The notes beneath the pieces were generated by a model. It did not search any database. It was not told the DNA's origin and saw only the letters and a program-made list of their open reading frames with translations. A program made the translations under genes and the position numbers. Source: a virus. From it: a DNA stretch of 28,705 nucleotides. Each line of letters begins with the position of its first letter. Positions within the stretch are counted from its first letter, which is position 1. Shown piece after piece: positions 611-21,780 of the stretch. The stretch covers positions 1-28,705 of the IMG/VR virus record IMGVR_UViG_3300047462_000262; one strand, 5' to 3'.

Positions 611-811
611 ATGAAAGTCTCGGAGCTATTTGAGAAGTCATTGATTGCTCCAAGCAGTTTCGATAAGACTGGCAGTCCTATGAAGTTGCCAAATCAATAT
701 AAAAATGTCGACTATGGTAAGGCAACAAAGGCAAGACCAATGACGATAACAGTAAGAAGTTCAGGCAAAGGTCATCAAGTTTACGGTCGTCGGACAATAA
801 TGTCAAAGTGA
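611..811 (+). CDS. Small basic protein with MKVSELF N-terminal tag (66 aa)
   Basis: Begins MKVSELFEKSL after an AAGG ribosome-binding site, then becomes basic and polar (KATKARPMTITVRSSGKGHQ). The N-terminus matches the M-K-hydrophobic-x-E-L-F pattern of several unrelated proteins in this window and resembles T4 capsid-targeting peptides. No enzyme motif. Ends TGA, 7 nt before the next gene. A packaged virion protein is an inference. Confidence 0.7.
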   Translation: MKVSELFEKSLIAPSSFDKTGSPMKLPNQYKNVDYGKATKARPMTITVRSSGKGHQVYGRRTIMSK

Positions 812-818
812 GGTAGTT

Positions 819-1139
819 GTGGATAAAAAGTTAACGTTTCTAGAATTTCTTCAACTTTCCGAAGCAGAGCTAAAGGCTATGGCTCCAGCAAATGTTGCTG
901 TTCGCAACAAACCAAACTTAATTGACAAGAGCAAGCCTCTTGATCCAGATTCATATGAGTATCGTCAACGTTGGAGAGGCAAGCCAAAGACAAAGGCTGG
1001 TCGTGAAGCACATGAAGTTGCTTATGATGTTAAGAAGAATCATGAGAAGCTTGCAAAGAGAAAAGAAACTTCGTCTGACTTTAAACCATTGAAGGGATAT
1101 CTTTCACCACGTCCACCTCGTGAAGGCAACCGCAACTGA
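819..1139 (+). CDS. Small basic late protein with capsid-targeting-like N-terminus (106 aa)
   Basis: Start GTG at 819, chosen because GAGG lies 6 nt upstream and no ATG is suitably placed. The N-terminus MDKKLTFLEFLQLSEAE is an amphipathic helix ending in LSE|A, which fits the (L/I)xE|A/G/S cleavage rule of T4-type prohead protease. The rest is basic (YRQRWRGKPKTKAGREAHE, then KKNHEKLAKRK), as expected of a T4-style internal head protein. That role is inferred; no homologue is recognised. Confidence 0.7.
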   Translation: MDKKLTFLEFLQLSEAELKAMAPANVAVRNKPNLIDKSKPLDPDSYEYRQRWRGKPKTKAGREAHEVAYDVKKNHEKLAKRKETSSDFKPLKGYLSPRPPREGNRN

Positions 1140-1148
1140 GGTTAGCAA

Positions 1149-1538
1149 ATGAAAGTAGTTGAAATTCTTAAAGAGGCTAAGCAACCTGCTAAGAAAACGA
1201 AGAAGATTCCAAAGCCAAAGCCTCGTCCCAAAAAGAATCTCTGGTTCCAAGATAAAAATCATTGGCATAATGATTTGACATTCGTTCATGGTCATGGCAA
1301 TCTTCAAATTCACCATCCAGCTGATGAAGAGGATGAAGAGTCTCGCGATTACTATGCAACTGGTCCAGATGGAAAAATAACGTGGGGTGTGTGGAGAGGA
1401 AAGCAGAAGCGTGGAATCACATTCTACCAACCAAGACATATTGCTTATGTTAAACATCCAAGAGTTAAGCTAAAACAATTGGATACAAGTGGGGCAGACA
1501 CAAATAATATAACTTCCCCACCAGTAATTCGCCCCTAA
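1149..1538 (+). CDS. Unknown protein with MKVVEILKEA N-terminal tag (129 aa)
   Basis: ATG preceded by GAGG. The N-terminus MKVVEILKEAK contains LKE|A, a possible prohead-protease site at residue 9, followed by a lysine/proline-rich linker (AKKTKKIPKPKPRPKK). The remainder (residues 33-129) has conserved-looking W, H and G residues (WFQDKNHWHNDLTFVHGHG; KITWGVWRGKQKRG) and could be one small folded domain. Family not recognised. Last gene before the leader and tRNA array. Confidence 0.7.
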   Translation: MKVVEILKEAKQPAKKTKKIPKPKPRPKKNLWFQDKNHWHNDLTFVHGHGNLQIHHPADEEDEESRDYYATGPDGKITWGVWRGKQKRGITFYQPRHIAYVKHPRVKLKQLDTSGADTNNITSPPVIRP

Positions 1539-1572
1539 AATTGCAGAAAGAATAAGGGAGTTTAACTTTCCG

Positions 1573-1601
1573 TTGACTTACCATATATACAATAGTAGAG
1601 T
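1573..1601 (+). promoter_or_regulatory. Sigma70-type promoter before the tRNA array
   Basis: TTGACT (1573-1578), a 17-bp spacer, then TAGAGT (1596-1601). The -35 matches 5/6 and the -10 4/6. Transcription would start near 1608 and run through the leader ORF and hairpins into the tRNA genes. Confidence 0.45.
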
Positions 1602-1686
1602 GCACTCCAAGTGAGACGTTTTACGACTCATGAATGGGACGCAAAGCGACCCAAGAGTAATTAACTGAAGGACAGGAAGAACGCAA

Positions 1687-1830
1687 ATGTTTACAAGACT
1701 ATCACAACATCAATCATGGCAAATATCGCAGCGACTCGCTGGCGGTCATGGGATGTCTTTGTGTGGTTTTAGCCGTTCAGAACGCCCTGATTATAGAAAT
1801 GGTCTTTCGTTTGAAGGAGTCAAAATTTAA
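1687..1830 (+). CDS. Putative leader peptide ORF (47 aa)
   Basis: ATG with AGGA about 9 nt upstream; begins MFTRLSQHQSWQ and ends at TAA 1828-1830. It resembles no known protein and contains most amino acids. Its last codons (1801-1830) form the 5' half of a 13-bp stem that competes with a terminator downstream. This position suggests a translated attenuation leader rather than a functional protein. It could also be a chance ORF. Confidence 0.35.
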   Translation: MFTRLSQHQSWQISQRLAGGHGMSLCGFSRSERPDYRNGLSFEGVKI

Positions 1831-1866
1831 GACTCCACTCTAAAAAGAGAATCCAAACGAAAGACC
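1801..1866 (+). promoter_or_regulatory. Candidate antiterminator hairpin
   Basis: GGTCTTTCGTTTG (1801-1813) pairs perfectly over 13 bp with CAAACGAAAGACC (1854-1866). Inside lie GGAGTC/GACTCC (1816-1821/1831-1836) and CTC/GAG. The 3' arm is the same sequence that supplies the 5' arm of the terminator at 1860-1892, so the two folds exclude each other. Confidence 0.55.
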
Positions 1867-1892
1867 GAATCGAAAGAAACGGTCTTTTTTAT
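1860..1892 (+). terminator. Intrinsic terminator upstream of the tRNA array
   Basis: AAAGACCG (1860-1867) pairs with CGGTCTTT (1880-1887) across a 12-nt loop, followed by a T-run ending TTATT. Placed before, not after, the tRNA genes, which suggests attenuation rather than simple termination. Confidence 0.6.
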
Positions 1893-1895
1893 TGC

Positions 1896-2170: not shown

Positions 2171-2247
2171 GAGGTCGTTGACAAGCGGCCTAAGTCCTGA
2201 CTCTGTGAAAGTCATATTCGTGGGTTCGAATCCCACCGATCTCCCCA
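2171..2247 (+). tRNA. tRNA-His (GUG)
   Basis: Acceptor GAGGTCG/CGATCTC, anticodon arm TGACT-CTGTGAA-AGTCA, T-arm GTGGG-TTCGAAT-CCCAC, C73 and encoded CCA. C73 fits bacterial tRNA-His, but the base before G1 is T, so the expected G-1 is not encoded. Confidence 0.9.
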
Positions 2248-2267
2248 AAAAGCATTCAAAGTATTAT

Positions 2268-2342
2268 GGCTCTATAGTGAAATGGATATCACGCAACTTT
2301 GCGAAGGTTGAAGTCCAGGTTCAATTCCTGGTTGGGCCACCA
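2268..2342 (+). tRNA. tRNA-Arg (GCG)
   Basis: Anticodon arm CAACT-TTGCGAA-GGTTG; T-arm CCAGG-TTCAATT-CCTGG; A73; encoded CCA. The acceptor has one U-U mismatch. GCG is unusual because bacteria normally read CGU/CGC with an inosine-modified ACG tRNA. Confidence 0.85.
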
Positions 2343-2361
2343 GTGGTAAGGTTTACGTCGC

Positions 2362-2400
2362 GGACCGTCGAAGACGTAGCACCGTAGTGTCAAGCGGTCC
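2362..2400 (+). other. Closed hairpin spacer before tRNA 2410
   Basis: GGACCG (2362-2367) pairs with CGGTCC (2395-2400), ending 9 nt before the next tRNA. A second pairing, TACGTC upstream with GACGTA inside the loop, would form an H-type pseudoknot with it. One of several such spacers in the window. Confidence 0.35.
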
Positions 2401-2409
2401 AGATTTTAT

Positions 2410-2487
2410 GCCTTCGTATCCCAACTGGCAGAGGAGCTTGTCTTAGAAACAAGTTATGTAGGAGTTCGAATCTCCTGGAAGGTACCA
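2410..2487 (+). tRNA. tRNA with UAG anticodon, short variable loop (Leu-type anticodon)
   Basis: Anticodon arm CTTGT-CTTAGAA-ACAAG, T-arm AGGAG-TTCGAAT-CTCCT, A73, encoded CCA. UAG reads CUA (Leu), but the variable region is only about 6 nt, whereas bacterial tRNA-Leu has a long arm. A canonical tRNA-Leu(UAG) exists at 18884, so this one may carry another amino acid. The first pair is G1-U72; pair 7-66 is a G-G mismatch. Confidence 0.75.
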
Positions 2488-2575
2488 TATGCTACGGGAA
2501 CTCAAATAGCATTAAAAAGAGTTCCTCCTGTGAAAGTCAGGCGAGCGGGATCTACGATACGGCCCAGTGAATTAT

Positions 2576-2651
2576 GTCCTTGTAGTCCAATGGATGGGCG
2601 CCGCGCTTCGAACGCGGAATAATGTAGGTTCGATTCCTATCAAGGATACCA
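2576..2651 (+). tRNA. tRNA-Arg (UCG)
   Basis: 76 nt: acceptor GTCCTTG/CAAGGAT (G1-U72), D-stem GTCC/GGGC, anticodon arm CCGCG-CTTCGAA-CGCGG, T-arm GTAGG-TTCGATT-CCTAT, A73, encoded CCA. Reads CGA/CGG. Confidence 0.9.
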
Positions 2652-2706
2652 TCTTACAGTGCCGGGCAAGCTTTCCATCCAGGAAAGAAGTTGTGGTGCT
2701 TGCGGG

Positions 2707-2757
2707 GCTAGCGCGCCGCTTCCAACATCAAAAACAATAGGTGGTAATTGAGCTAGC
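2707..2757 (+). other. Closed hairpin spacer before tRNA-Phe
   Basis: GCTAGC (2707-2712) pairs with GCTAGC (2752-2757), ending 9 nt before tRNA-Phe. Just upstream lie nested GCAAGC/GCTTGC and CTTTCC/GGAAAG stems. TTGAGCTAG also recurs as a direct repeat entering the tRNA D-arm. Confidence 0.3.
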
Positions 2758-2766
2758 ATAATTTAT

Positions 2767-2845
2767 GGGACTTGAGCTAGTGTGGTCATTTCAGCACACG
2801 CCTGAAGAGCGTGATAACTCGGTTCGATTCCGGGAGGTCCCACCA
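2767..2845 (+). tRNA. tRNA-Phe (GAA)
   Basis: Acceptor GGGACTT/AGGTCCC, anticodon arm CACGC-CTGAAGA-GCGTG, T-arm CTCGG-TTCGATT-CCGGG, A73, encoded CCA. The D-loop is rather long. Confidence 0.9.
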
Positions 2846-2970
2846 CATCGATCGTACATAGAGGGGTTTGCAGTATCCTCTATGACACGTACTTAAACTG
2901 CTCTCTGAGGTCAAAAGAGAAAATAAGTCTCATCTGCGGGTGAGCGGGAGTAGACCGAAGCGTAAGAGTA
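2846..2970 (+). other. Structured spacer
   Basis: Contains an 8-bp hairpin CATAGAGG/CCTCTATG inside GTAC/GTAC, then CTCAT/GTGAG within GTCT/AGAC. No ORF and no tRNA seen. Confidence 0.25.
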
Positions 2971-3041
2971 AAGTCATTGGTGTAGTGGAAGCACACCGGG
3001 CCATTAGCCTGGAAGCGTTGGTTCGAACCCGACATGACGAA
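2971..3041 (+). tRNA. Atypical or decayed tRNA-like sequence
   Basis: T-arm GTTGG-TTCGAAC-CCGAC and D-arm GTG/CAC are clear, but only five acceptor pairs form (GTCAT/ATGAC) and no CCA is encoded. The anticodon stem CCGGG/CCTGG closes CCATTAG, which lacks U33; read conventionally the anticodon is AUU (Asn). The stem can extend to six pairs with a 5-nt loop. Probably a degenerate tRNA. Confidence 0.45.
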
Positions 3042-3083
3042 TGGGATCTCTACCGTGAATCAAAAAGCCCATACAAATTCTAA

Positions 3084-3162
3084 GGGGAGGTACGCCAGTT
3101 GGTAGAGCGGCTAGGTATTAAAAGCTTAGTGGTCGGTGGTTCGAACCCATCCTTCCCCACCA
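3084..3162 (+). tRNA. tRNA with Lys-like body and expanded 9-nt anticodon loop
   Basis: Acceptor GGGGAGG/CTTCCCC, T-arm GGTGG-TTCGAAC-CCATC, A73, encoded CCA. D-arm and variable region (GTTGGTAGAGC, GGTC) resemble bacterial tRNA-Lys. The best anticodon stem, CTAGG/CTTAG, closes a 9-nt loop TATTAAAAG, so the anticodon is ambiguous (UUA by 5' counting, UAA by the U33 rule). Confidence 0.6.
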
Positions 3163-3167
3163 AATAT

Positions 3168-3242
3168 GTAGCTGTCTTCTAACGGCAGGAAACTTCGTTC
3201 TCAGCGAAGATAATGTGGGTTCAATTCCCATCAGCTACGCCA
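3168..3242 (+). tRNA. tRNA-Glu (CUC)
   Basis: Perfect acceptor GTAGCTG/CAGCTAC, anticodon arm CTTCG-TTCTCAG-CGAAG, T-arm GTGGG-TTCAATT-CCCAT, G73, encoded CCA. Only 5 nt after the preceding tRNA. Confidence 0.9.
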
Positions 3243-3248
3243 CTTTGC

Positions 3249-3256
3249 TATAAATA
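3249..3256 (+). promoter_or_regulatory. T4-type late promoter TATAAATA
   Basis: Exact match to the T4 late consensus, 26 nt before the ATG at 3283 with a GGAG site between, which is the classical arrangement. Confidence 0.7.
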
Positions 3257-3282
3257 GTCTCACCATACATTTGGAGACTATT

Positions 3283-3654
3283 ATGACCCTCTTAAGCGAA
3301 TTGTTTCAGATTAATGAAGCTACACAACCAGTTGATCCAACTCTTGCTATTGAAGAACAGCTTGAGATTCTCGAATCTCGCATGGCAGCAGCAAAAAGAG
3401 GTCTTGGGTTTGCTAACAAGTTAAAAAATCCAGCTCAAAAGAAAAAGCATATGGCACTTGTTCTTAGCAACTTGAATAAGATTCGTGGTAATCTTACTCG
3501 TGTAATTAATCAGATGGCACAGTTTGATAATGCTGAACGTGATCACGAAGCAAGTATGGAAGGTCCAGGAATGGAGTTTGACCACAATAGTCGTGAACCA
3601 ACAGCTGGTCGTGCAGCAGCTCGTAAAGAAGGTGATGCCGCAGGTTGGATGTAA
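3283..3654 (+). CDS. Unknown late protein with capsid-targeting-like N-terminus (123 aa)
   Basis: ATG 3283 is preferred to an in-frame TTG at 3271 because GGAG sits 6 nt upstream of it. The N-terminus MTLLSELFQINEA resembles T4 Alt-type capsid-targeting peptides and contains INE|A, a T4-protease-like site at residue 12. The body is helical with a basic stretch (MAAAKRGLGFANKLKNPAQKKKHM), and the C-terminus ends GRAAARKEGDAAGWM. Driven by an exact late box and closed by a strong terminator, so probably monocistronic. Internal head protein is an inference. Confidence 0.75.
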   Translation: MTLLSELFQINEATQPVDPTLAIEEQLEILESRMAAAKRGLGFANKLKNPAQKKKHMALVLSNLNKIRGNLTRVINQMAQFDNAERDHEASMEGPGMEFDHNSREPTAGRAAARKEGDAAGWM

Positions 3655-3677
3655 TTTAACAATGTAAATTTTTACTA

Positions 3678-3708
3678 GAAAAGCCTCTTTATGAGGCTTT
3701 TCCTTTTT
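3678..3708 (+). terminator. Rho-independent terminator
   Basis: A 10-bp perfect stem GAAAAGCCTC/GAGGCTTTTC with a 5-nt loop, followed by CTTTTTAA. Ends the transcript of the gene at 3283; the methylase start lies 12 nt beyond. Confidence 0.85.
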
Positions 3709-3720
3709 AAGGATACCCAT

Positions 3721-4314
3721 ATGTCAAGTCAAGAGATCGTAGCGAACACATTAGCTACATATTGGAATGTAAAGGACCAGTATAAGGAGAAGACTCTTGA
3801 TCAATTGCGAGAGGTATGCGATAATGATTCGTTGCCATTTGCAGTTTGTGCGATCAATATAACAGGTGATTTGAACCTTGGAATCATGATGAGAACAGCA
3901 TCGCTTCTAGGAGCTGAGCGTTTTATCATTTATGGCAAGCACACATATGATCGTCGTTCAACTGTTGGTGCACATAATTACATTGATATTGTTAAGGCTG
4001 GAAGTATTGATCGTGGTGGTTCATTGGATATTAACTACGATGAGTTCTTTCCAATTATGAATAGCTTTGGTTATCAACCAGTTTTCCTTGAAACAGGTGG
4101 ACAACCATTAGAGAATTTTGATCCAAAGTATAGCATTGGTAAGTACAAGAAGCCTTGCCTAGTATTTGGAAACGAAGGGATTGGCATTGAGCCATCACTT
4201 ATGGTAGATCAAGTTGTGGTTAGCATTCACCAAAGAGGTGTGCTAAGAAGTTTTAACGTATGTGCAGCTGCAGCAATTGCAATTGAACATACATCAAGGT
4301 ATTTTAGAGAATAA
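3721..4314 (+). CDS. SpoU/TrmH-family RNA 2'-O-methyltransferase
   Basis: Transfers methyl from S-adenosylmethionine to a ribose 2'-OH of tRNA or rRNA. The three SPOUT motifs are visible: N52-L-G-I-M-M-R58, LVFGNEGIGIE (147-157) and LRSFNVCAAAAIAIEH (175-190) with the conserved S177 and N179. At 197 aa it is the bare catalytic domain with a short N-terminal extension. ATG 3721 was chosen for AAGGAT upstream; an ATG at 3691 lies inside the terminator. The stop ends one base before tRNA-Glu, so a phage-tRNA substrate is plausible but not shown. Confidence 0.85.
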   Translation: MSSQEIVANTLATYWNVKDQYKEKTLDQLREVCDNDSLPFAVCAINITGDLNLGIMMRTASLLGAERFIIYGKHTYDRRSTVGAHNYIDIVKAGSIDRGGSLDINYDEFFPIMNSFGYQPVFLETGGQPLENFDPKYSIGKYKKPCLVFGNEGIGIEPSLMVDQVVVSIHQRGVLRSFNVCAAAAIAIEHTSRYFRE

Positions 4315-4315
4315 T

Positions 4316-4392
4316 GTCTGTGTCGTCTAAAGGCTCAGGACTCCTGCCTTTCAAGTAGGATAATGTGGGTTCGACTCCCATCGCAGACGCCA
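4316..4392 (+). tRNA. tRNA-Glu (UUC)
   Basis: Acceptor GTCTGTG/CGCAGAC, anticodon arm CCTGC-CTTTCAA-GTAGG, T-arm GTGGG-TTCGACT-CCCAT, G73, encoded CCA. Begins one base after the methylase stop codon. Confidence 0.92.
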
Positions 4393-4395
4393 AGT

Positions 4396-4518
4396 TAATA
4401 CCAGCAAGCATACGATGCTGTCTCAACTTAATAGTTGTAGAAAGAGAGTATGTAGGACATTTTACCGAAAGTAAAATTAATTTGGGCTAGCCAAGCACGG
4501 TCCTGTAAACTTGTATTA
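4396..4518 (+). ncRNA. Candidate structured RNA between tRNA-Glu and tRNA-Asp
   Basis: Closing stem TAATAC/GTATTA (4396-4401/4513-4518) encloses CAGCA/TGCTG (4402-4406/4416-4420), CAACT/AGTTG (4424-4428/4433-4437), and GGAC/GTCC (4455-4458/4500-4503), which in turn encloses TTTTAC/GTAAAA (4460-4465/4471-4476) and GGCTAGCC. It ends 9 nt before tRNA-Asp. It may be a processing element or a separate RNA; function unknown. Confidence 0.4.
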
Positions 4519-4527
4519 TTGAATTAT

Positions 4528-4604
4528 GGAGCGTTCGCATAGTGGCCTATTGCACTCCCCTGTCACGGGAGACTTCAGGGGTTCGAATCCCCTACGTTCC
4601 GCCA
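4528..4604 (+). tRNA. tRNA-Asp (GUC)
   Basis: Acceptor GGAGCGT/ACGTTCC, anticodon arm CTCCC-CTGTCAC-GGGAG, T-arm AGGGG-TTCGAAT-CCCCT, G73, encoded CCA. Confidence 0.93.
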
Positions 4605-4622
4605 TATTTGTAAAGGAAAGTA

Positions 4623-4907
4623 ATGCCAATTACACAAAGTCATATAGACTATTTGTTAACAACAATTGACAACGATATGGATAAGGAAATATCCATGTGT
4701 GGTCCAATTTTTCGTCAATCACGAGAGCAGTTTGCTCTAGGAATATTGACTGAAAATGAAGTACGAGAAGGTTTAGGATACTTAGTGAAACTTGTTCTTC
4801 CAAGAACGACAGCTAAATTCCATGCCGAAAAATTATTCAATGCAGCGATCGATTACATTATCGATCCAACCAAAGTATTAAATGCAGAGGTTGGTAGTGT
4901 TCAATAG
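4623..4907 (+). CDS. Unknown small protein (94 aa)
   Basis: ATG with AAGGAAAG upstream. Begins MPITQSHIDYLLTTIDND; mostly helical and acidic, no recognised motif. It ends in UAG, a rare stop here, with an in-frame UAA five codons on, so readthrough would add only four residues. Confidence 0.65.
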   Translation: MPITQSHIDYLLTTIDNDMDKEISMCGPIFRQSREQFALGILTENEVREGLGYLVKLVLPRTTAKFHAEKLFNAAIDYIIDPTKVLNAEVGSVQ

Positions 4908-4963
4908 AAAAGAATACAATAAGCGGCTGCGTGGGTAGAAAAAGTTTTTAAAAACTAATATAT

Positions 4964-5038
4964 GCAGGTAGAGTGTGTTTGGTTACACGACTGGCTTCCA
5001 CCCAGTAATACGGAGTTCGATTCTCCGTATCTGCTCCA
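4964..5038 (+). tRNA. tRNA-Gly (UCC)
   Basis: Acceptor GCAGGTA/TATCTGC, D-stem GTGT/ACAC, anticodon arm ACTGG-CTTCCAC-CCAGT, T-arm CGGAG-TTCGATT-CTCCG, U73, encoded CCA. Confidence 0.93.
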
Positions 5039-5111
5039 ATCACTAGTGAGTTGCAAACAAGGAATGGCGATGTCTGACTCTGCAGAGAAGGACAAAAGCT
5101 GAACTTGTTGA

Positions 5112-5181
5112 AGTTGTATAGTATAGTGGAAACACGTCTCCTTTTTCGGAGAAGACCTGGGTTCGAATCCCAGTGCAATGG
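5112..5181 (+). tRNA. Atypical tRNA, Lys (UUU)-like anticodon, 6-nt loop
   Basis: T-arm CTGGG-TTCGAAT-CCCAG is perfect. The acceptor gives six pairs (GTTGTA/TGCAAT, two G-U) with a mismatched first position and no encoded CCA. The anticodon stem TCTCC/GGAGA closes a 6-nt loop TTTTTC, reading UUU (Lys) with one base missing 3' of the anticodon. Degenerate tRNA, or one with an altered anticodon loop. Confidence 0.5.
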
Positions 5182-5198
5182 GCAACTTTAAGTTTTAT

Positions 5199-5274
5199 CA
5201 GAGTAAGCGCCATATGGGAGGCGACTCGGCCTGGAACCGAGAATACCGTGCAGGTTCGAATCCTGCTACTCTGA
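5199..5274 (+). tRNA. tRNA-Pro (UGG), with C33
   Basis: Perfect acceptor CAGAGTA/TACTCTG (C1-G72 as usual for tRNA-Pro), D-stem CGCC/GGCG, anticodon arm CTCGG-CCTGGAA-CCGAG, T-arm GCAGG-TTCGAAT-CCTGC, A73. Position 33 is C instead of the near-universal U, and CCA is not encoded. Confidence 0.8.
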
Positions 5275-5299
5275 CATGGGGACCTTGTCGAAGGTCCGT

Positions 5300-5307
5300 A
5301 ATAAATA
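5300..5307 (+). promoter_or_regulatory. Late-type box AATAAATA abutting a start codon
   Basis: 7/8 match to TATAAATA, 4 nt before the GIY-YIG start. A T4-like start site about 6 nt after the box would fall on the start codon, implying a leaderless mRNA. A GGACCTT/AAGGTCC hairpin (5280-5297) lies just upstream. Confidence 0.5.
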
Positions 5308-5311
5308 GAGG

Positions 5312-5971
5312 ATGCATTACATTCTCTATAAGATTACAAATAATGTAAATGGTAAGTCCTACATAGGAACTCATAAAACCACAAACATTAACGACGGGTA
5401 TTTTGGATCAGGCAAGCTGTTGAAGCGTGCTATTCTAAAATATGGCATCGATAAGTTCTCGAAAGAGATTCTTCAAATGTTCCAGAATGAAGAAGAGATG
5501 TTTAAAGCAGAAGCTGAAACTGTAAACGAAGATTTTGTTAAACGCGAAGACACATACAATCTTATTGTTGGTGGTCAAGGTGGATTTAGTTATATAAATG
5601 CCAACGGGCTAGCTGTTCAACATATCACTAAAACCAACGCAAAGCGTCTCAGCAAAAAGGCTAACAAGGCAAGATCGTTAAAGCTGCAAACAGATTCACA
5701 GTTTCGTAAGCAAGTTCAAAAAACATCACGAAAGATTATGCTTCAGCGAATAGCTCAAAATGGACCTTCGTTTTTAGGCAAGCAGCATAGTGCCGCTACC
5801 AAACGAAAAATGAGTAGGGCTAAGAAAGGTAAGACCATCGGCGATAAAAACTCACAGTACGGAACAATGTGGATTACCAATGGTACCAACAACAAAAAGA
5901 TTTTAAAGAATGAATCTATTCCATCAGGATGGAATAGGGGTCGAATAATGGGCATATGCGTGAGTGGTTGA
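5312..5971 (+). CDS. GIY-YIG homing endonuclease (Seg-like)
   Basis: Cuts DNA at a specific site to promote its own spread. Residues 1-90 form the GIY-YIG domain (YILYKITNNVNGKSYIGTHK with downstream catalytic R and E candidates). Residues about 150-205 carry a NUMOD3-like DNA-binding repeat (FLGKQHSAATKRKMS, then GKTIGDKNSQYGTMWITNG). Intron-free, like T4 Seg enzymes. Paralogous along its length to the gene at 9627. The last residues (IMGICVSG) are read from the following tRNA-Tyr, and the stop lies in that tRNA's D-loop, suggesting insertion or deletion removed its own stop. Confidence 0.88.
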   Translation: MHYILYKITNNVNGKSYIGTHKTTNINDGYFGSGKLLKRAILKYGIDKFSKEILQMFQNEEEMFKAEAETVNEDFVKREDTYNLIVGGQGGFSYINANGLAVQHITKTNAKRLSKKANKARSLKLQTDSQFRKQVQKTSRKIMLQRIAQNGPSFLGKQHSAATKRKMSRAKKGKTIGDKNSQYGTMWITNGTNNKKILKNESIPSGWNRGRIMGICVSG

Positions 5972-6035
5972 AACGACGAAGCTGTAACCTTCGTGCTTAA
6001 TAGCCGCGGTGGTTCAAATCCATCTACATCCACCA
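5950..6035 (+). tRNA. tRNA-Tyr (GUA), first copy, imperfect acceptor
   Basis: Anticodon arm CGAAG-CTGTAAC-CTTCG, long variable arm (14 nt), T-arm GGTGG-TTCAAAT-CCATC, A73, encoded CCA. The acceptor GGGCATA/TACATCC has two adjacent C-A mismatches. Its 5' part overlaps the 3' end of the GIY-YIG gene. Possibly non-functional, since an intact copy follows. Confidence 0.75.
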
Positions 6036-6040
6036 GCTTT

Positions 6041-6126
6041 GGGTCTCTATACCGTTATGGACACGGAGCGCACTGTAAATGCGTTGCCTTATGGCTGGGT
6101 AGGTTCGATTCCTACGTGACCCACCA
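6041..6126 (+). tRNA. tRNA-Tyr (GUA), second copy
   Basis: Acceptor GGGTCTC/GTGACCC (one U-U mismatch), anticodon arm GCGCA-CTGTAAA-TGCGT, variable arm with GCC/GGC stem, T-arm GTAGG-TTCGATT-CCTAC, A73, encoded CCA. Five nt after the first copy. Confidence 0.88.
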
Positions 6127-9626: not shown

Positions 9627-10262
9627 ATGCATTATTACCTCTATCAAATCACAAACAATGCGAATGGAAAAATCTACGTTGGAGTTCATAAAACCACAGA
9701 TATAAACGATGGTTATATGGGCTCTGGAAAAGTTATTCGGTATGCTATTGCAAAGCATGGGATCGAAAACTTTACAAAAGACATATTGGAGTTCTTTGAA
9801 AATGCTGAACTTATGTATGCAAGAGAGAAAGAGGTTGTTACGGACGAGTTTTTACTAAGAGAAGATACTTATAACCTTCGTAGAGGTGGAACAGGTGGGT
9901 TTGACTACATAAGAAAAAGTCCACAATATAAAGAGTGGGTAAGTCGAGGTGGTCACGCCAATAGAGATACACGAACCCCAAAAAGAACGAGAGCACTAAA
10001 ACTTCAAGCTAAGAGAAATCAAGCACTTATTCAAAATAAAATAAAAGAAAATGGTGGTATTTGGTGGGAACCAGCTCGAAGTTTTTTAGGAAAAAGACAT
10101 ACAATTGCAACTAAAGAACTCATGAGTAACGTAAAACGAGGCACCAACACCGGTAAAGCAAATTCACAATACGGCACTATGTGGATTACAAATGGTGTTC
10201 ATAATCAAAAGATCAAAGCAGACTCAACTATACCAACTGGTTGGTATAAAGCAAGAAAGTGA
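9627..10262 (+). CDS. GIY-YIG homing endonuclease, second copy
   Basis: Paralogue of the gene at 5312: YLYQITNNANGKIYVGVHKT at the N-terminus, REDTYNLRRGGTGGF near residue 80, and a C-terminal NUMOD3-like FLGKRHTIATKELMS with NSQYGTMWITNG. 211 aa. It follows tRNA-Cys, as the first copy follows tRNA-Pro, so both probably home into tRNA spacers. Its TGA overlaps the GTG of the next gene. Confidence 0.88.
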   Translation: MHYYLYQITNNANGKIYVGVHKTTDINDGYMGSGKVIRYAIAKHGIENFTKDILEFFENAELMYAREKEVVTDEFLLREDTYNLRRGGTGGFDYIRKSPQYKEWVSRGGHANRDTRTPKRTRALKLQAKRNQALIQNKIKENGGIWWEPARSFLGKRHTIATKELMSNVKRGTNTGKANSQYGTMWITNGVHNQKIKADSTIPTGWYKARK

Positions 10263-10735
10263 AACTACACGAAATCGTAAGTAATCGACAAATTGTTGTC
10301 GTATGTGGAAACATATCTTCCGGTAAAGGAACTTACGTAAAAAGTAAGTATCCTGATTACCAGCAAATTACTGTATCTGATATTGTAAAGAAACTTACAG
10401 GAATGCAGAATCGAAGTGAGATTACAAAGACAAAAAATCTCGATATTCAAATTATCGAAGAGTTGATTAAAGAGATTAGCAAATACAATCGTGTTGTTGT
10501 TGAAGGTATCCGACAGCCAAGTATTTTGCATAAATTGGAACTACACTTTGGTGATCAGATTAAAGATGTTATTTGGTTAGATGTTCCTGAAGAGAAGCGC
10601 AGAGAGTACTTCACTAAACGTGGAGCTTCAAAGGACGATATGAGTTTTGATAAAGCAAGTGCTGCTGATCGTAATCTTGGAATCGATGATCTCGAACAAT
10701 ACATTCGTGATAAGCATAGAGTAGAGAAGTTATAA
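10259..10735 (+). CDS. P-loop nucleoside/nucleotide kinase-like protein
   Basis: Walker A GNISSGKGT follows beta-strand QIVVVC (about residues 10-24). A second strand VVVEGIRQPS and a DVIWLDVPEEKRREYF segment resemble the Walker B and lid regions of NMP or dephospho-CoA kinases. The substrate cannot be told. GTG start (GTGA overlap). The N-terminus MKLHEIVSN carries the shared tag. Length 158 aa, shorter than most NMP kinases. Confidence 0.7.
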   Translation: MKLHEIVSNRQIVVVCGNISSGKGTYVKSKYPDYQQITVSDIVKKLTGMQNRSEITKTKNLDIQIIEELIKEISKYNRVVVEGIRQPSILHKLELHFGDQIKDVIWLDVPEEKRREYFTKRGASKDDMSFDKASAADRNLGIDDLEQYIRDKHRVEKL

Positions 10736-16892: not shown

Positions 16893-16920
16893 CGTCTGGG
16901 ACTGAAATATGTCCGTTTAG

Positions 16921-16951
16921 AGAAGCCCCAGAAATGGGGCTTCTTCGTTTT
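16921..16951 (+). terminator. Rho-independent terminator after the VWA gene
   Basis: GAAGCCCC/GGGGCTTC (16922-16929/16936-16943) with a 6-nt loop, followed by TTCGTTTT. Confidence 0.85.
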
Positions 16952-16960
16952 AGGATTCAT

Positions 16961-17380
16961 ATGCCAATAAGTCAGCGAAATGATCGACAAGTTAATCTGT
17001 TGTACAGATGGGAAAGTTGGAACGGTTGGGATAAGAACACAATCGGATTTAACAAAGCAAAGTCTGTAATTATTTCTGCTTGCAGAGCATACAAAGTTAA
17101 ACTTCCTGAAATAAAAATACACAATACTCGTCTACTTCCATGGTCGTGTCCTGAAAACAACCTGATTAGCATGCAACGTGGAAAATATTTGAATATTCCT
17201 GTTTGTCTCCACGAAGCTTCTCATCACATTGTTTACAACCTCTACGGTGCAAGACCGCAAGATCACGGTCCAACATTCCTTGGAATTTACCTGGATCTAC
17301 TGAATAGGAACGGATTTCCAAGGTACAGAAGTGCAAAAGAGTATGGTTTACGTTGGAAGCGTTTGGACACGAATAAATAA
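16961..17380 (+). CDS. SprT-like HExxH metalloprotease
   Basis: 139 aa. HEASHHIV (HExxH at residues 84-88) with a third candidate zinc ligand H102 in DHGPTFLGIYLDLL, and a CRAYKVKLPEIKI strand ahead, as in SprT-like proteases. The fold is the short catalytic core only. ATG 16961 has TAGGA upstream; an upstream in-frame ATG at 16934 lies in the terminator. The 3' end overlaps an AATAAATA box for the next gene. Confidence 0.75.
   Translation: MPISQRNDRQVNLLYRWESWNGWDKNTIGFNKAKSVIISACRAYKVKLPEIKIHNTRLLPWSCPENNLISMQRGKYLNIPVCLHEASHHIVYNLYGARPQDHGPTFLGIYLDLLNRNGFPRYRSAKEYGLRWKRLDTNK
17372..17379 (+). promoter_or_regulatory. Late-type box AATAAATA abutting a start codon
   Basis: 7/8 match, embedded in the end of the metalloprotease gene and 4 nt before the nucleotidyltransferase ATG. 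Confidence 0.5.
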
Positions 17381-17383
17381 CGG

Positions 17384-18088
17384 ATGAAGTTATACGAGCT
17401 TACCTTCCAATATCACGACAAACTTAACCCTAAAATTTGGGATGGCGACAAGCTACGTCCTGAAGTTCGCAAGAAGATGCTTACTATTGCTGAACACTTC
17501 TTTAAGTCATTGAAGGTACCAAACCTAAAAGTAGAGGATTGTGTATTCACAGGCAGCTGTGCAAACTATAACTACACTCCATATTCCGACCTTGACATTC
17601 ACTTGCTTATCGATACAAAGAAAGCTGCTGTTGAATGCAAAGAGTTTAAGATGGAACTCTTTGATGCAAAGAAGGATCTTTGGAAATCAAAGTACGAAGA
17701 TGTAGAGATTTGTGGCTATCCAGTTGAAGTTTATGTTCAAGACATTAATGAGAAGTTTCCAGTTGCACAAGGTGTGTATTCACTACGCAACGATAAATGG
17801 TTAGACAAACCAGAACACAAGAAGCCAGAGATCGACAAGAAAGAAGTCAAGGCAACAACAAAGGACTTTGAAAAAGAGATTAACGCTGTTGTTAGCGGTG
17901 ATCAAGGACACGATAAGGCAAAGAAGATTAAGGATGAACTTAAGACGACTCGCGAGAAAGGTCTACATAGTGATGGTGAGTTCTCTGATGAGAACATTGC
18001 GTTCAAGGAACTACGCAACAAAGGCATCATAGGTAAGTTAATGAACTATATAAAAGACAAAGACGTTGAAAAAATGTCATTAAAGTGA
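17384..18088 (+). CDS. Pol-beta-fold nucleotidyltransferase with N-terminal tag
   Basis: 234 aa. The nucleotidyltransferase signature is FTGSCANYNYTPYSDLDIHL (about 55-74): GS at 57-58 and the metal-binding D69 and D71; PVEVYVQD (113-120) could supply the third acidic residue. The C-terminal third is lysine-rich and helical. The N-terminus MKLYELTFQYHDKLN carries the shared tag. It could modify a protein, an RNA or a small molecule; not a typical CCA enzyme. The TGA overlaps the next GTG. Confidence 0.75.
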   Translation: MKLYELTFQYHDKLNPKIWDGDKLRPEVRKKMLTIAEHFFKSLKVPNLKVEDCVFTGSCANYNYTPYSDLDIHLLIDTKKAAVECKEFKMELFDAKKDLWKSKYEDVEICGYPVEVYVQDINEKFPVAQGVYSLRNDKWLDKPEHKKPEIDKKEVKATTKDFEKEINAVVSGDQGHDKAKKIKDELKTTREKGLHSDGEFSDENIAFKELRNKGIIGKLMNYIKDKDVEKMSLK

Positions 18089-18312
18089 ATTTAACAGACA
18101 TTACAGATCATGGTGATTCACCAATGATTACAATACCTGGCCTTGGCCAAATGACATTAGCGCAAGCAAAGCGTGGCGTTCAATCTATAATTGAAGATAT
18201 GGCCGCTGATATAAAGTATAATCATTGGAAAGAACTTAAATATAGGCTTGACCATGGCATCTTACAGGTGTATATTAACGCAATTGCAGAAGCACAAAGT
18301 AAACAACATTAA
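18085..18312 (+). CDS. Unknown small protein (75 aa) coupled to the nucleotidyltransferase
   Basis: GTG start in a GTGA overlap. Begins MNLTDITDHGDSPMITIPGL, then a helical segment (AQAKRGVQSIIEDMAADI). It could be a partner or regulator of the nucleotidyltransferase, by position only. The following 85 nt hold an 11-codon ORF (18321) ending in UAG and the next late box. Confidence 0.65.
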   Translation: MNLTDITDHGDSPMITIPGLGQMTLAQAKRGVQSIIEDMAADIKYNHWKELKYRLDHGILQVYINAIAEAQSKQH

Positions 18313-18370
18313 GGACTTACAATGTTTGCAAGAATGATTGATTTTTATTGTCGTTAGAAAGGGTAGACTC

Positions 18371-18378
18371 TATAAATA
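18371..18378 (+). promoter_or_regulatory. T4-type late promoter TATAAATA
   Basis: Exact consensus, 19 nt before the second HNH gene, with GGAG between. Confidence 0.65.
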
Positions 18379-18397
18379 GATAAAATGGAGTCTACCA

Positions 18398-18877
18398 ATG
18401 AAAAGAAAAGCAACAAACGAAGAAATAATTAATGCAGCGCACACTAGTGCTTCAATGTATGAAGCAGCTAGAAAAGTTGGATTAAACCCAACTTCTTTTA
18501 TTATTAGAGCAAAGAAACTTGGGGTATATAATCCTAATCCTAACCCTAACCCTAAAGGTAAAACTCAAATAAGTAAAGCTCGACAAAAATATTTTAACGA
18601 AACAATAACACCTCTTGATGATATCTTACAAGGGATGTATCCTAACTATAAAGGGCTTTATCTTAAACATAGACTTTACGAAGCTAAGCTGAAAAAAGAA
18701 AAATGTGAAGAGTGTGGACAAAAGAATAGTTGGAATGGAAAACCTTTAACCTTAGAGCTTGAACATGTAAACGGTAACAAAAAGGATCATAGACTTAATA
18801 ATTTAAGGATTTTGTGTTTACATTGTCATTCGCAAACTCCTACGTTTCGAAGACGAAAATCTTCTTTGTGTAAATAA
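18398..18877 (+). CDS. HNH homing endonuclease, second copy
   Basis: 159 aa. N-terminal helix-turn-helix-like segment (SMYEAARKVGLNPTSFIIRA), then an NPNPNPNP linker encoded by CCTAAC-type hexamer repeats (about 18535-18555). The C-terminal HNH has CEECGQK, LELEHVNGNKKDHRLNNL and CLHCHSQT. It sits directly before tRNA-Leu(UAG), as other homing genes here sit beside tRNAs. Confidence 0.88.
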   Translation: MKRKATNEEIINAAHTSASMYEAARKVGLNPTSFIIRAKKLGVYNPNPNPNPKGKTQISKARQKYFNETITPLDDILQGMYPNYKGLYLKHRLYEAKLKKEKCEECGQKNSWNGKPLTLELEHVNGNKKDHRLNNLRILCLHCHSQTPTFRRRKSSLCK

Positions 18878-18883
18878 TGTATT

Positions 18884-18970
18884 GCCCAGGTGGCGAAATA
18901 GGTAGACGCGCGAGATTTAGAATCTCGTTCCTTAATCGGAGTGCAGGTTCGATTCCTGTCTTGGGCACCA
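18884..18970 (+). tRNA. tRNA-Leu (UAG)
   Basis: Acceptor GCCCAGG/CTTGGGC, anticodon arm CGAGA-TTTAGAA-TCTCG, long variable arm, T-arm GCAGG-TTCGATT-CCTGT, A73, encoded CCA. Canonical leucine tRNA, unlike the short one at 2410. Confidence 0.93.
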
Positions 18971-18973
18971 ATT

Positions 18974-19882
18974 TTAGACTACTGGATCCGTAAAGACCAA
19001 CTGTGGTGCAAATGGACCACGTCGAACCATAATGTTTCCACCATGAATATCAGGTCCTCTAGGATCATTATCTCCTTTGCGAGATTTTTTGATAAATCCT
19101 CGCAATACAATCAAAGCCCTCTTTAGTTCTGGATCTTTAATGTTTGTAGCTGGTCCCTTATCGCCTGGAGCAGGTCTATATGGTACTTCCATTGCAGTTC
19201 TAATAGCATCAAAAAACGCATCTTCTACAACGCTTTTAAATTTACGTGAATATTCTTCTTCGCCCTTTTGTCCAAAAAGGACCTTTTGTTTTTGTATCTT
19301 TAATCTTTCATGTTCATCACGACTACGTTTCCCTGCACCAATTTTATCACGAACCTTGTTTTCATCACGAAGGTTTTTTCTTTTTTGGTTGTATGAACTT
19401 AGCAATGCTTGGAAATTTGAAAATAGCTTATTGCCCATTTCCATCATTTCTTCTACTGACAAATCTGAAAATCGATGCAAACGTTCCATTTCAACTTTAT
19501 AAGTGTATGGTTCTTGATAACGTTGGTTAGGATCTGGTGGAGATTTAAATACTTCTACATCATACACTCTTGGAAAATACCTATTGTCGGATCCCTCCTT
19601 GTGAGAAGCCAACATTTTCATGTATTGGTAGTATCCATCTCGGCCAAGATTACTTGCTGGTCTTACAACTTTATTCGCCGTTCCTGGTTCTTCTTTTGTT
19701 GAATATGCAGTTCCAAATAAACCCGATCCAAGACGTTCAATACCATTTTCTTCGTCTGATTGCGTTTCAGCACCATATCGGTCATCTTGACCACGATTCA
19801 ACCGATCAAAATTATCTCTAGCAGATACTTCTGTATCTTTTGGCTCAAGCTTCTGTGGTGTTAATAGTTCAAATACTTTCAT
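18974..19882 (-). CDS. Protein-kinase-like protein with N-terminal tag (302 aa)
   Basis: Kinase-like fold: glycine-rich loop LGSGLFGTAYS (51-61), candidate lysine in NKVVRP (about 71), catalytic-loop-like DIHGGNIMVRR (D278, N283) and TDPVV with D299 in the DFG-aspartate position. The D-x-H-x-x-N form recalls APH/RIO-type kinases more than HRD kinases. The protein ends straight after the D, so no activation segment or C-lobe remains. Tag MKVFELLTP at the N-terminus. Start at 19882 has AAGGAT upstream. Paralogue of the next gene; the two form a minus-strand pair. Target unknown. Confidence 0.7.
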   Translation of the reverse strand: MKVFELLTPQKLEPKDTEVSARDNFDRLNRGQDDRYGAETQSDEENGIERLGSGLFGTAYSTKEEPGTANKVVRPASNLGRDGYYQYMKMLASHKEGSDNRYFPRVYDVEVFKSPPDPNQRYQEPYTYKVEMERLHRFSDLSVEEMMEMGNKLFSNFQALLSSYNQKRKNLRDENKVRDKIGAGKRSRDEHERLKIQKQKVLFGQKGEEEYSRKFKSVVEDAFFDAIRTAMEVPYRPAPGDKGPATNIKDPELKRALIVLRGFIKKSRKGDNDPRGPDIHGGNIMVRRGPFAPQLVFTDPVV

Positions 19883-19883
19883 A

Positions 19884-20657
19884 TTAATCCTTCCATTTTG
19901 GTGATGCGCCGCCACCTGAAATTGGATCTGTAATTACAACCTGTACGCCATAAGGTCCGCGACGAATCATTAAGTTGGCATGATGTAGATCCGCTGAAAA
20001 ATCAGGATTTGATTTTAGAATTTTCTGTAAAAACATCATTGCCTGTACCAACTTTGGATTCTTAATTGTTGTTATTGGTCTTGTTGACATTAATATCTCG
20101 TTAAAACAATCTGCAAAGGCAACCAATGCCACTATTTTTTGAGTTCGTTCTCTTGACTGTTCTTCTTCTGGATCACCAGTTGGTTTTGATCCTTTGATTC
20201 CAAGTTTTTTCTTCTGACCCCTAATTTCTGAATCAAACTCTGTAAAGAGATCTCTTCCGATTGTCATAATCTCATCTGTTCTTAAACTTGAAAGTGGGCG
20301 CAACTTTTCCATGTTAACATTATATGTGTACTTACCACTAGCATCTCTAAATGTATCTAATTTAAATACTTTTGGAAAGAATGGATTGTTTGCAATACGA
20401 TCATTCTGCGAAAGCATATGTAAAAATTCATAGTACGGGTCGTCTGCAAGATATTTAATTTCACTTGATTTAGCTATCTTATCGACAGCGCCTGGATCTT
20501 TTTGAGCAGCATATACATCAGCATATGCTCCACCACCAATACGTTGACGTGATTGGTCAGTCCAACCAAGTTCTCGCTGTTTGGATGCGATATTTTGCTT
20601 ATCCAATTGCTTATACTTCAGTTGGTCAGGTGTTAGAAAAAGTTCAAGTAATTTCAT
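19884..20657 (-). CDS. Protein-kinase-like protein with N-terminal tag, paralogue (257 aa)
   Basis: Same layout as its neighbour: tag MKLLELFLTPD, glycine-rich loop RIGGGAYADVY (about 40-49), lysine in VDKIAK, the segment FFPKVFKLDTF, and ADLHHANLMIRR (D223, N228) then ITDPIS (D244). A short tail follows. All nucleotide- and metal-binding positions seem kept, so activity is possible. ATG 20657 has no ribosome-binding site and lies 5 nt after a minus-strand AATAAATA box. The downstream paralogue begins right after its stop. Confidence 0.7.
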   Translation of the reverse strand: MKLLELFLTPDQLKYKQLDKQNIASKQRELGWTDQSRQRIGGGAYADVYAAQKDPGAVDKIAKSSEIKYLADDPYYEFLHMLSQNDRIANNPFFPKVFKLDTFRDASGKYTYNVNMEKLRPLSSLRTDEIMTIGRDLFTEFDSEIRGQKKKLGIKGSKPTGDPEEEQSRERTQKIVALVAFADCFNEILMSTRPITTIKNPKLVQAMMFLQKILKSNPDFSADLHHANLMIRRGPYGVQVVITDPISGGGASPKWKD

Positions 20658-20662
20658 AATGT

Positions 20663-20670
20663 TATTTATT
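20663..20670 (-). promoter_or_regulatory. Late-type box AATAAATA (minus strand)
   Basis: 7/8 match ending 5 nt before the ATG at 20657, so a T4-like start site would be exactly the A of ATG. Confidence 0.5.
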
Positions 20671-20671
20671 C

Positions 20672-20687
20672 GGGTAAAATTTTACCC
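20672..20687. promoter_or_regulatory. Perfect 16-bp palindrome, possible operator
   Basis: GGGTAAAATTTTACCC lies between divergent late boxes for the kinase pair (minus) and the Hsp20 unit (plus). No loop, so a DNA site is more likely than a hairpin. Confidence 0.4.
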
Positions 20688-20724
20688 TGAAATTTTGACC
20701 GTTGATTTTCTGTTTTTGATCGTT

Positions 20725-20732
20725 TATAAATA
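20725..20732 (+). promoter_or_regulatory. T4-type late promoter TATAAATA
   Basis: Exact consensus on the + strand, upstream of the Hsp20 leader. Confidence 0.55.
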
Positions 20733-20756
20733 TCGGTGCAATAGAAATATTGCTGG

Positions 20757-20820
20757 TGGAGCATCAGACCGGATTAAACCCCGGTCGGTCCTTTACCATA
20801 AATAGAGATGCAATGCTCCA
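20757..20820. repeat. Inverted repeat flanking a late box
   Basis: TGGAGCAT (20757-20764) and ATGCTCCA (20813-20820), with GACCGG/CCGGTC between them. Confidence 0.6.
20797..20804 (+). promoter_or_regulatory. Late-type box CATAAATA
   Basis: 7/8 match, 3 nt before the small leader ORF at 20808. Confidence 0.45.
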
Positions 20821-20894
20821 TTGGAGGTTGCAAAGTGAAAAGGATGCTCGTAAGAGGTCCACAACATTATATCGCTATGGAGGATATTTTATGA
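20808..20894 (+). CDS. Small upstream ORF (28 aa) coupled to Hsp20
   Basis: ATG 3 nt after a late box; MQCSIGGCKVKRMLVRGPQH and on to a TGA that overlaps the Hsp20 ATG (ATGA). Perhaps a leader that delivers ribosomes to Hsp20. No known family. Confidence 0.4.
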   Translation: MQCSIGGCKVKRMLVRGPQHYIAMEDIL

Positions 20895-21361
20895 ATGACT
20901 TAAATCGTCTTTTTGATGCCCTATGGGCAACCACTATTGGCTTTGATCCTGTTTTTACACGAGCAAGCCAACTAACGCCAAGTTTTCCTCACTACAATAT
21001 CTTCAAGGAAGATGACGACCACTACAATGTCGATCTCGCCCTTGCAGGATATGGTCCTGATGATGTAGATATTACTTGGCTTCCAGGTAGTTTAACTATC
21101 TCTTCAGCTTCGAAGAAAGAAGCAAAGGATGAAAGACAAGTTTATCGAGGTATTGCAAAACGTGATTTCCGTTTCACACTTCCACTTGCGCAGCATGTAG
21201 AAGTTGGTGCAACAGACTTCACAAATGGAATGCTTCGTGTACAACTTGTTCGCAACATTCCAGAGGCTGCAAAACCTCGTAAGATTGCAATCGGCTACAG
21301 AAATGAAAGTCTGTTGACTGATCAATCAAATGTTGTATCCTTACAACAGAAGCAAGCGTAA
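20891..21361 (+). CDS. Small heat-shock protein, Hsp20/alpha-crystallin family
   Basis: ATP-independent holdase. 156 aa: N-terminal MNDLNRLFDALWATTIGFDP as in IbpA-type proteins, then an alpha-crystallin domain (about 40-140) with NVDLALAGYGPDDVDI, VYRGIAKRDFRFTLPLA and the closing NGMLRVQLVR. The C-terminus has KPRKIAIG near the usual I-x-I anchor. ATG 20891 has GGAGGA upstream. Phage Hsp20 genes are known in T4-like phages, possibly aiding capsid assembly. Confidence 0.93.
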   Translation: MNDLNRLFDALWATTIGFDPVFTRASQLTPSFPHYNIFKEDDDHYNVDLALAGYGPDDVDITWLPGSLTISSASKKEAKDERQVYRGIAKRDFRFTLPLAQHVEVGATDFTNGMLRVQLVRNIPEAAKPRKIAIGYRNESLLTDQSNVVSLQQKQA

Positions 21362-21395
21362 GCAAAGACACCAGTCGAGCTATCGCAGGGTAATA

Positions 21396-21417
21396 GGGAG
21401 CGTCTTCGGACGCTCCC
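21396..21417 (+). terminator. Very stable C(UUCG)G hairpin
   Basis: GGGAGCGTC-TTCG-GACGCTCCC: nine pairs with a UUCG tetraloop. The tail is not T-rich, so it may be a processing or stability element instead. Confidence 0.55.
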
Positions 21418-21437
21418 TCCTTGAGGAAGTTCGAGAC

Positions 21438-21566
21438 ATGCCGGGAGTTCATAGGAGACGAAAGTCGTACTACGAGATACCAAAAGGCGGCATGCAACAC
21501 AAACAGACCGCAGGCAAGCTCAAGTCAAGTAGGTCGGGTAGTGGCAGTAGAGGAATGATAGCATAG
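21438..21566 (+). CDS. Small basic protein (42 aa)
   Basis: ATG with GAGGA upstream. MPGVHRRRKSYYEIPKGGMQ, then a Lys/Ser/Arg/Gly-rich tail; ends in UAG. Possibly a packaged or nucleic-acid-binding peptide; unassigned. Confidence 0.45.
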   Translation: MPGVHRRRKSYYEIPKGGMQHKQTAGKLKSSRSGSGSRGMIA

Positions 21567-21597
21567 AACAGAATCTCGGCTATTGACTGTTGTCTTT

Positions 21598-21605
21598 TCT
21601 AAATA
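21598..21605 (+). promoter_or_regulatory. Late-type box TCTAAATA abutting a start codon
   Basis: 7/8 match, 4 nt before the ATG at 21610. Confidence 0.45.
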
Positions 21606-21609
21606 GAGA

Positions 21610-21780
21610 ATGAAATTACATGAAATTGCGGACAAGGTAGCAACACCTTATGAAAAGGTGCAAGGTGGAGAACATCCAAAAGCTGTTCGTAAGGCTGGTA
21701 AGAAGCTCATGCGAAAGTTGAAGAAGAAAAAGAAGCTTCCGATGTTTTTAAGGAAGCAAGCAGAGTCGATAGAAGTTTAA
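21610..21780 (+). CDS. Small basic protein with MKLHEI tag (56 aa)
   Basis: MKLHEIADKVATPYEKVQGG, then a basic run (KAGKKLMRKLKKKKKLP). The N-terminus nearly repeats that of the P-loop kinase at 10259 (MKLHEIVSN). No ribosome-binding site; a late box abuts the start. Tag plus basic body fits a DNA-associated virion protein, as inference. Ends 3 nt before tRNA-Leu. Confidence 0.6.
   Translation: MKLHEIADKVATPYEKVQGGEHPKAVRKAGKKLMRKLKKKKKLPMFLRKQAESIEV

Follow-up and report, generated by a model that had tools for sequence, protein, structure and literature searches.

A short N-terminal peptide, referred to here as the tag, recurs on proteins encoded by the IMG/VR virus record IMGVR_UViG_3300047462_000262, the whole 28,705 bases of which constitute the window. 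We defined a strict motif, MK[LIVMF]xE[LIVMF] at the protein start, and found it in 6 of the 48 genes returned by the gene caller used, and in 7 once the gene at 10259 is read from a GTG start. The caller undercalls genes (432 in RAS14, against 561 annotated features) and misses some starts; it placed that of 10259 at an internal ATG, and a 63%-identical homologue in stretch L139 begins at an ATG with MKLNEI. Two more proteins, 819 and 3283, carry close variants. A preliminary description of this DNA had listed the same nine N-termini, all of which were recovered in place; its quotation for 819 (LTFLEF..) corresponds to residue 5 onward of MDKKLTFLEFLQLSEA, which is read from the GTG at 819. 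The nine genes and a protease homologue are given below, with a slash marking a candidate cleavage site.

611..811, plus strand: small basic tagged protein, MKVSELFE/K, 66 amino acids (aa), isoelectric point (pI) 10.3
819..1139, plus strand: basic protein with the variant tag MDKKLTFLEFLQLSE/A, GTG start
1149..1538, plus strand: tagged basic protein, MKVVEILKE/A, 129 aa, pI 9.9
3283..3654, plus strand: protein with a tag like that of T4 Alt, MTLLSELFQINE/A; homologue in the head cluster of the related genome G011 (96413-96691)
10259..10735, plus strand: P-loop kinase-like protein; MKLHEI tag, divergent linker, then P-loop domain; GTG start
17384..18088, plus strand: Pol-beta-type nucleotidyltransferase (phrog_36119); MKLYE, then the LTFQYHD domain
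18974..19882, minus strand: kinase-like protein 2, MKVFELL
19884..20657, minus strand: kinase-like protein 1, MKLLELF
21610..21780, plus strand: very basic tagged protein of 56 aa, MKLHEI, pI 10.3
22585..23052, plus strand: homologue of the S77 prohead protease that lacks GE-x-x-HP and SSRG

Occurrence of the motif in the window and its relatives

The six strict matches among the called genes compare with 0.36 expected under column independence (Poisson P 2e-6). The motif was present in 6 of the 13 MK starts of the window (7 of 14 counting 10259), against 2 of 514 internal lysine contexts and 2 of 253 MK starts in control genomes (T4, RAS14, S-CRM01, XacN1, phiKZ and 100 kb of CcrSwift; phiKZ alone, 1 of 29). 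Since the window had supplied the motif, its relatives, with the window left out, provide the independent test. These relatives (group A) were found by way of the 391-aa VWA-like protein of the window. Proteins were clustered on residues 23 onward, and one per family was kept to remove homology; this clustering used a first, stricter caller (threshold 8), and proteins shorter than 55 aa were dropped. The strict motif was found in 21 to 23 of 980 body-unrelated families, where 1.65 were expected and none of 10,000 column shuffles reached the count, and in 0 of 530 families of T4 plus RAS14. A frequency no higher than chance, which the preliminary description had named as evidence against the tag, was thus not observed. 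An N-terminal tag common to the window phage and part of its relatives is real. Among MK starts, the strict motif was counted in 10 of 115 in G011, 4 of 33 in G012, 3 of 12 in G019 (two of them paralogues), 2 of 24 in G024, 1 of 17 in G025 and 2 of 5 in the nearest relative, G001; Cr30, another T4-like phage, had 2 of 32, and G003 had 0 of 28. The 391-aa protein itself (15717-16892; phrog_26613, function not assigned) serves as a clade marker with 27 IMG/VR loci, its VWA-like look having been judged by reading.

The window copies of the tag use different synonymous codons, which rules out a DNA repeat as the source of the motif. Tagged proteins are not basic in general either (median pI 6.5 versus 6.1), although the small ones of the window are. 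The bearers of the tag had been described as otherwise unrelated, which is mostly correct; the two kinase-like proteins are paralogues, so that the seven strict-motif proteins represent six families.

The protein types assigned beforehand also stood. Both kinase-like proteins gave weak matches to PHROG 15752 (4.7e-9 and 5.2e-7) and conserve D-x-H-x-x-N and TDP, which we take to be catalytic residues. A model of kinase-like protein 1 had a mean predicted local distance difference test (pLDDT) score of 70, with residues 1-23 below 50, and its best Foldseek matches were protein kinases and APH; because these reach a template-modelling (TM) score of only about 0.3, the kinase fold call is tentative. 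The profile match links both proteins to the T7 gp0.7-type protein kinase (phrog_15752), although similarity to it is low. The T7 gp0.7 protein is made after infection and is not known to be packaged. The homologue of the kinase in RAS14, a cultured relative, starts MKLIDLF. Among four kinase-like proteins (31-50% identity to the first), E5 is invariant, the next invariant residue being K16; a search with the kinase-like protein against bacterial genomes found nothing. The 10259 protein matched AAA_18 just under the cut-off, and it and its L139 homologue both start MKLxEI and differ at all of residues 7-11. Its sole homologue in the phage records, from Chryseobacterium phage MA9V-3, is untagged, with the P-loop domain at its very start (MKVKIIIGEICSGK); no S77 match was found in that phage, a single case. 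The nucleotidyltransferase matched NTP_transf_2 and phrog_36119, and the best structural matches of its model were Pol-beta-like, at low TM. Family and profile searches with the 611 protein and a search of the phage records with the 1149 protein gave no match.

Comparison with the packaging signals of phage T4

The internal proteins of T4 carry N-terminal propeptides of 10-19 residues that bind the core (PMC9026906). In the same account, the first 10 residues of IPIII are sufficient, and gp21 cleaves after L/I-x-E. Targeting depends on residues 4 and 7, whereas processing depends on residues 8 and 10; with Asp at position 10, processing is blocked and targeting is not. Alt is described there as an enzyme that T4 packages and injects, and the possibility that a capsid-targeting sequence (CTS) lets T4-like phages package various proteins is already raised.

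T4 Alt starts MELITELFDE and a neighbouring T4 gene MELITELFDG. The pattern M-x-L-[LI]-x-E-L-F, with its E then L, also occurs in G011 head genes and, at the Alt spacing, in window 3283, whose N-terminus is MTLLSELFQINEA (MTLLSELF). Most window tags differ from Alt in being one residue shorter (M-K-L-x-E-L, as in MKLLELF), and their predicted cargo is kinase-like, nucleotidyltransferase and P-loop rather than ADP-ribosyltransferase. With the internal-protein CTS (MKTYQEFIAEA) the tag shares a short M-K peptide at the N-terminus of otherwise unrelated proteins and its presence on homologues of the window nucleotidyltransferase. A further likeness is [LI]xE/A, which follows in 819, 1149 and 3283 as the preliminary description had claimed (LSE/A, LKE/A and INE/A); 611 adds LFE/K. 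The two differ in that the register of aromatic 4 and E10 is missing in the window, and a cut site often is. The register of the internal-protein tag, in which residues 4 and 7 do the targeting (PMC9026906), differs from that of the window tags. Judged by its letters, M-K-[LV]-x-E-[LI]-[LF] is closer to Alt (MELITELF) than to the internal proteins.

Candidate cut sites of the [LI]xE type lie inside the tag in 10259, 17384, 19884, 21610 and 3283, and downstream of the core tag in 611, 819, 1149 and, again, 3283; the tag of 18974 has only VFE, with no L/I at the third place. Of 29 strict-tagged proteins (window included), 15 had such a site ending at residues 7-14, versus 30 of 205 other MK starts. 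In the heads of phiKZ and SPN3US, an S77-type protease cutting after E likewise removes N-terminal regions of packaged proteins, but these propeptides are mostly long, about 80-127 residues (PMC5694885). In the literature searched, whose coverage left out most subscription journals, we found neither the MKLxEL form nor nucleotidyltransferases or kinases bearing a capsid-targeting tag. The kind of signal is known; the consensus and the cargo set look new.

A residue-pair scan with no motif supplied recovered the T4 tag in group B, which comprises 727 families from T4-like phages that share the nucleotidyltransferase with the window. The top three residue pairs were F4-E10 (31 versus 8.5 expected), S3-F4 (20 versus 4.7) and F4-L8 (29 versus 8.6), which amount to MK[ST]FxQFLxE, T4's own CTS. 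Starts of the internal-protein type were found in 19 to 23 of the 727 families, against 0.29 expected. The scan was noisy outside group B: group A ranked T3-T6 first and L3-E5 fourth, and T4 plus RAS14 gave no tag-like pair at first rank. Contig G003 alone encodes seven proteins with internal-protein-type starts; Pfam searches of five of these returned VanY, a methyltransferase, a weak ART-PolyVal match (below cut-off) and two without a match. Cr30 has a weakly PARP-like protein starting MKTFKQFFNES, and among four tagged proteins of G011, one matched NUDIX and three had no Pfam match.

The nucleotidyltransferase family connects the two forms of the tag. Homologues were taken from 80 of 577 related IMG/VR stretches; 4 without an anchor were dropped, and the other 76 contain 53 distinct sequences. 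Cultured relatives with this enzyme include S-CRM01, Cr30 and DSL-LC03. The N-termini of the homologues include MKTFGQFITESSDLTL, MKSFRNILREAVELTL and MKNFHRYIDEAIALTL as well as MKITDLSESASYH and MRLQELAQVAPYH, beside MKLYELTFQYH in the window, so that either a T4 internal-protein-type or a window-type tag is found at the same place. A site of the [LI]xE type occurred within the 18 residues upstream of the domain in 26 of the 53 distinct homologues versus 283 of 1947 body windows; these residues were taken from the open frame, and a few matches may precede the true start. Many homologues are untagged, with short MLPAANK or MENL starts, and a scan of viral contigs with a single nucleotidyltransferase sequence found nothing. 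In L009, L010, L011, L013, L018, L065 and L068, a T4-type tag lies inside a longer frame upstream of the nucleotidyltransferase domain and follows a repeated KxxVxDSxGKKxLGTHxSKxxAxxQLxAI segment, as if cutting at such an internal tag would free the nucleotidyltransferase from another domain.

Prohead protease, head genes and upstream sequences

Peptidase S77 was found in all 6 annotated or named records that contain the nucleotidyltransferase or the kinase, and in 8 of 11, 6 of 13 and 2 of 7 records of further sets, many of which are fragments; it is present in the relatives G011, G012, G016, G019, G021 and G015 and in RAS14. In G011 (358 kb), genes near the T4-type protease (105054) start MELLRELHSLIEG, MLIKELTAIIEE, MQLLRELHAINEAK, MLLNEIKK, MKIKELVEK and MELLQELLVING; starts beside the protease include MELLREL.., MQLLRELHAINEA and MKIKEL... 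Gene order and N-termini suggest capsid and scaffold identities for members of this cluster. Its gene at 96413 is the homologue of window 3283 (35% over 77 aa). A loose form of the tag was present in 6 of 14 genes of the cluster versus 25 of 529 elsewhere in G011, a post hoc comparison, as the pattern was noticed before testing. Near the protease in 11 other genomes, the loose tag was found in 15 of 201 genes versus 70 of 2310 (P 0.0024), a weaker excess than in G011, and [LI]xE/[AGS] in 23 of 201 versus 129 of 2310 (P 0.0017). A 443-aa protein of G011 found nothing when searched against phage records. G011 also has a degenerate second S77 copy (115044-115415) beside an intact-looking one, and a diverged protease paralogue is reported for SPN3US (PMC5694885).

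The late-promoter-like TAAATA lay upstream of 10 of 27 tagged genes, compared with 158 of the 1053 others (P 0.007 in a stratified test), a difference that is no more than suggestive. T4 late promoters read TATAAATA, and an exact copy lies at 3249-3256, upstream of 3283. With one mismatch allowed, TATAAATA was not enriched across the window (47 versus 45 expected) and was set aside.

Two further loci carry tag-like starts. L125:11875-15970 resembles a cargo island, with four tag-like genes of different lengths in 4 kb (MRLAELCLLREA, MKLREVLGE, MKLLELHQE and MKVRQLLEI). L139:5961-6203 encodes a tagged basic 80-aa protein of two near-identical halves, both of which begin with a stretch resembling the tag, MDLExMKKDVDPKEMRKRVIKAGGNPFG. 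In the window itself, 29 tRNA genes within 2171-21868 are interleaved with small genes and with two GIY-YIG-like and two HNH-like genes, the latter four recognized by reading the sequences.

Proposed role of the tag and alternative explanations

Taken together, the tag is probably the Alt-like, clade-specific form that a T4-type capsid-targeting sequence has in this group of large phages, and in some proteins it comes with an [LI]xE processing site. By binding to the prohead core, it would cause its bearer to be enclosed during head assembly. Cleavage by the S77 (gp21-type) protease would follow, after an [LI]-x-E that lies within the tag (L3-x-E5; L4-S-E6 in 3283) or just downstream of it, where LSE/A, LKE/A, INE/A or LFE/K occurs; a tag that lacks a good site may serve in targeting and stay uncut. 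The predicted cargo comprises the two kinase-like proteins, the nucleotidyltransferase, the P-loop kinase-like enzyme and small basic proteins, which, extrapolating from T4, would accompany the DNA on injection and have early effects on the host.

Several observations weigh against this proposal. The internal-protein register (aromatic 4, hydrophobic 7 and 8, E10) was found at no start in the window or the group A families, and in five of the nine tagged window proteins the core tag is followed by no [LI]xE. The strict motif was absent from the MK starts of the relatives G015 (0 of 16), G016 (0 of 3), G020 (0 of 12) and G021 (0 of 11). The loose motif was rejected as a genome-wide marker, T4 itself having 15 of 254. 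Strict matches also occur on a Cr30 protein that we take to be UvsY-like and on a membrane protein of L115, so not every match is a tag, and some, such as these two, are probably ordinary proteins. The only S77 homologue in the window, at 22585-23052, is degenerate (PF03420 14.1 bits, cut-off 27; phrog_207 2.5e-5): aligned with six others, it lacks GE-x-x-HP and SSRG, which we assume to hold the catalytic His and Ser, and it is presumably inactive and not the processing enzyme. For the model to hold, an active enzyme must therefore be encoded in another part of the genome. The capsid-targeting role put forward in the preliminary description is thus favored by S77 in relatives, the head-cluster enrichment, the internal-protein-type tags on nucleotidyltransferase homologues and the start of T4 Alt; it is weakened by [LI]xE/A in only three window proteins and by the degenerate S77 copy, and it is not proven.

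The tag could instead dock the enzymes onto some other partner from the phage or the host, such as the sliding clamp or RNA polymerase, and so gather them inside the cell without packaging. Sliding-clamp partners use short L-x-L-F-like peptides, and the peptide is short, N-terminal, hydrophobic and acidic; moreover, G011 has tagged enzymes far from its head genes, and many tags have no cut site. Against docking stand the enrichment beside the prohead protease, the excess of [LI]xE just after the tag and the position shared with the T4-type tag in the nucleotidyltransferase family, and we regard it as unlikely. We consider it quite improbable that the tag is a relic of head targeting, kept through fold or descent by a nucleotidyltransferase and a P-loop protein that are now ordinary cytoplasmic enzymes. 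The window nucleotidyltransferase, which has 5-6 residues before its domain and in which the tag leads directly into the conserved LTFQYHD, would fit such a relic, as would the five tags without a downstream site; the invariant E5 of the four kinase-like proteins, the tail of kinase-like protein 1, modelled as disordered, and the MKLxEI retained by the P-loop pair ahead of a changed linker argue otherwise. Chance, or the ordinary amphipathic N-termini of phage proteins, could be invoked because lysine at position 2 and hydrophobic residues are frequent at protein starts and the window itself supplied the strict motif. Given that composition-preserving column shuffles of the relatives never reached the observed count, that controls stay at the internal baseline and that codons vary, this explanation is very improbable.

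Beyond the window, there is perhaps an even chance that T4-superfamily phages use an N-terminal zip code in clade dialects (MKSFLQYLxEA, MELLRELxxINEA and MKLxELL) to load swappable injected enzymes, with kinase-like, nucleotidyltransferase, ADP-ribosyltransferase-like, NUDIX, methyltransferase and peptidase domains as cargo. If so, the proteins injected in the first minute would be predictable from sequence alone. A capsid-targeting tag would make it possible to tell from sequence which of the many unknown proteins of large T4-like phages are carried in the head and reach the host first, and would point, beyond T4 Alt, to kinase-like and nucleotidyltransferase effectors that are injected. The idea of diverse CTS-packaged proteins, as raised in PMC9026906, would become directly testable, and phage heads could be loaded with proteins by means of new addressing peptides.

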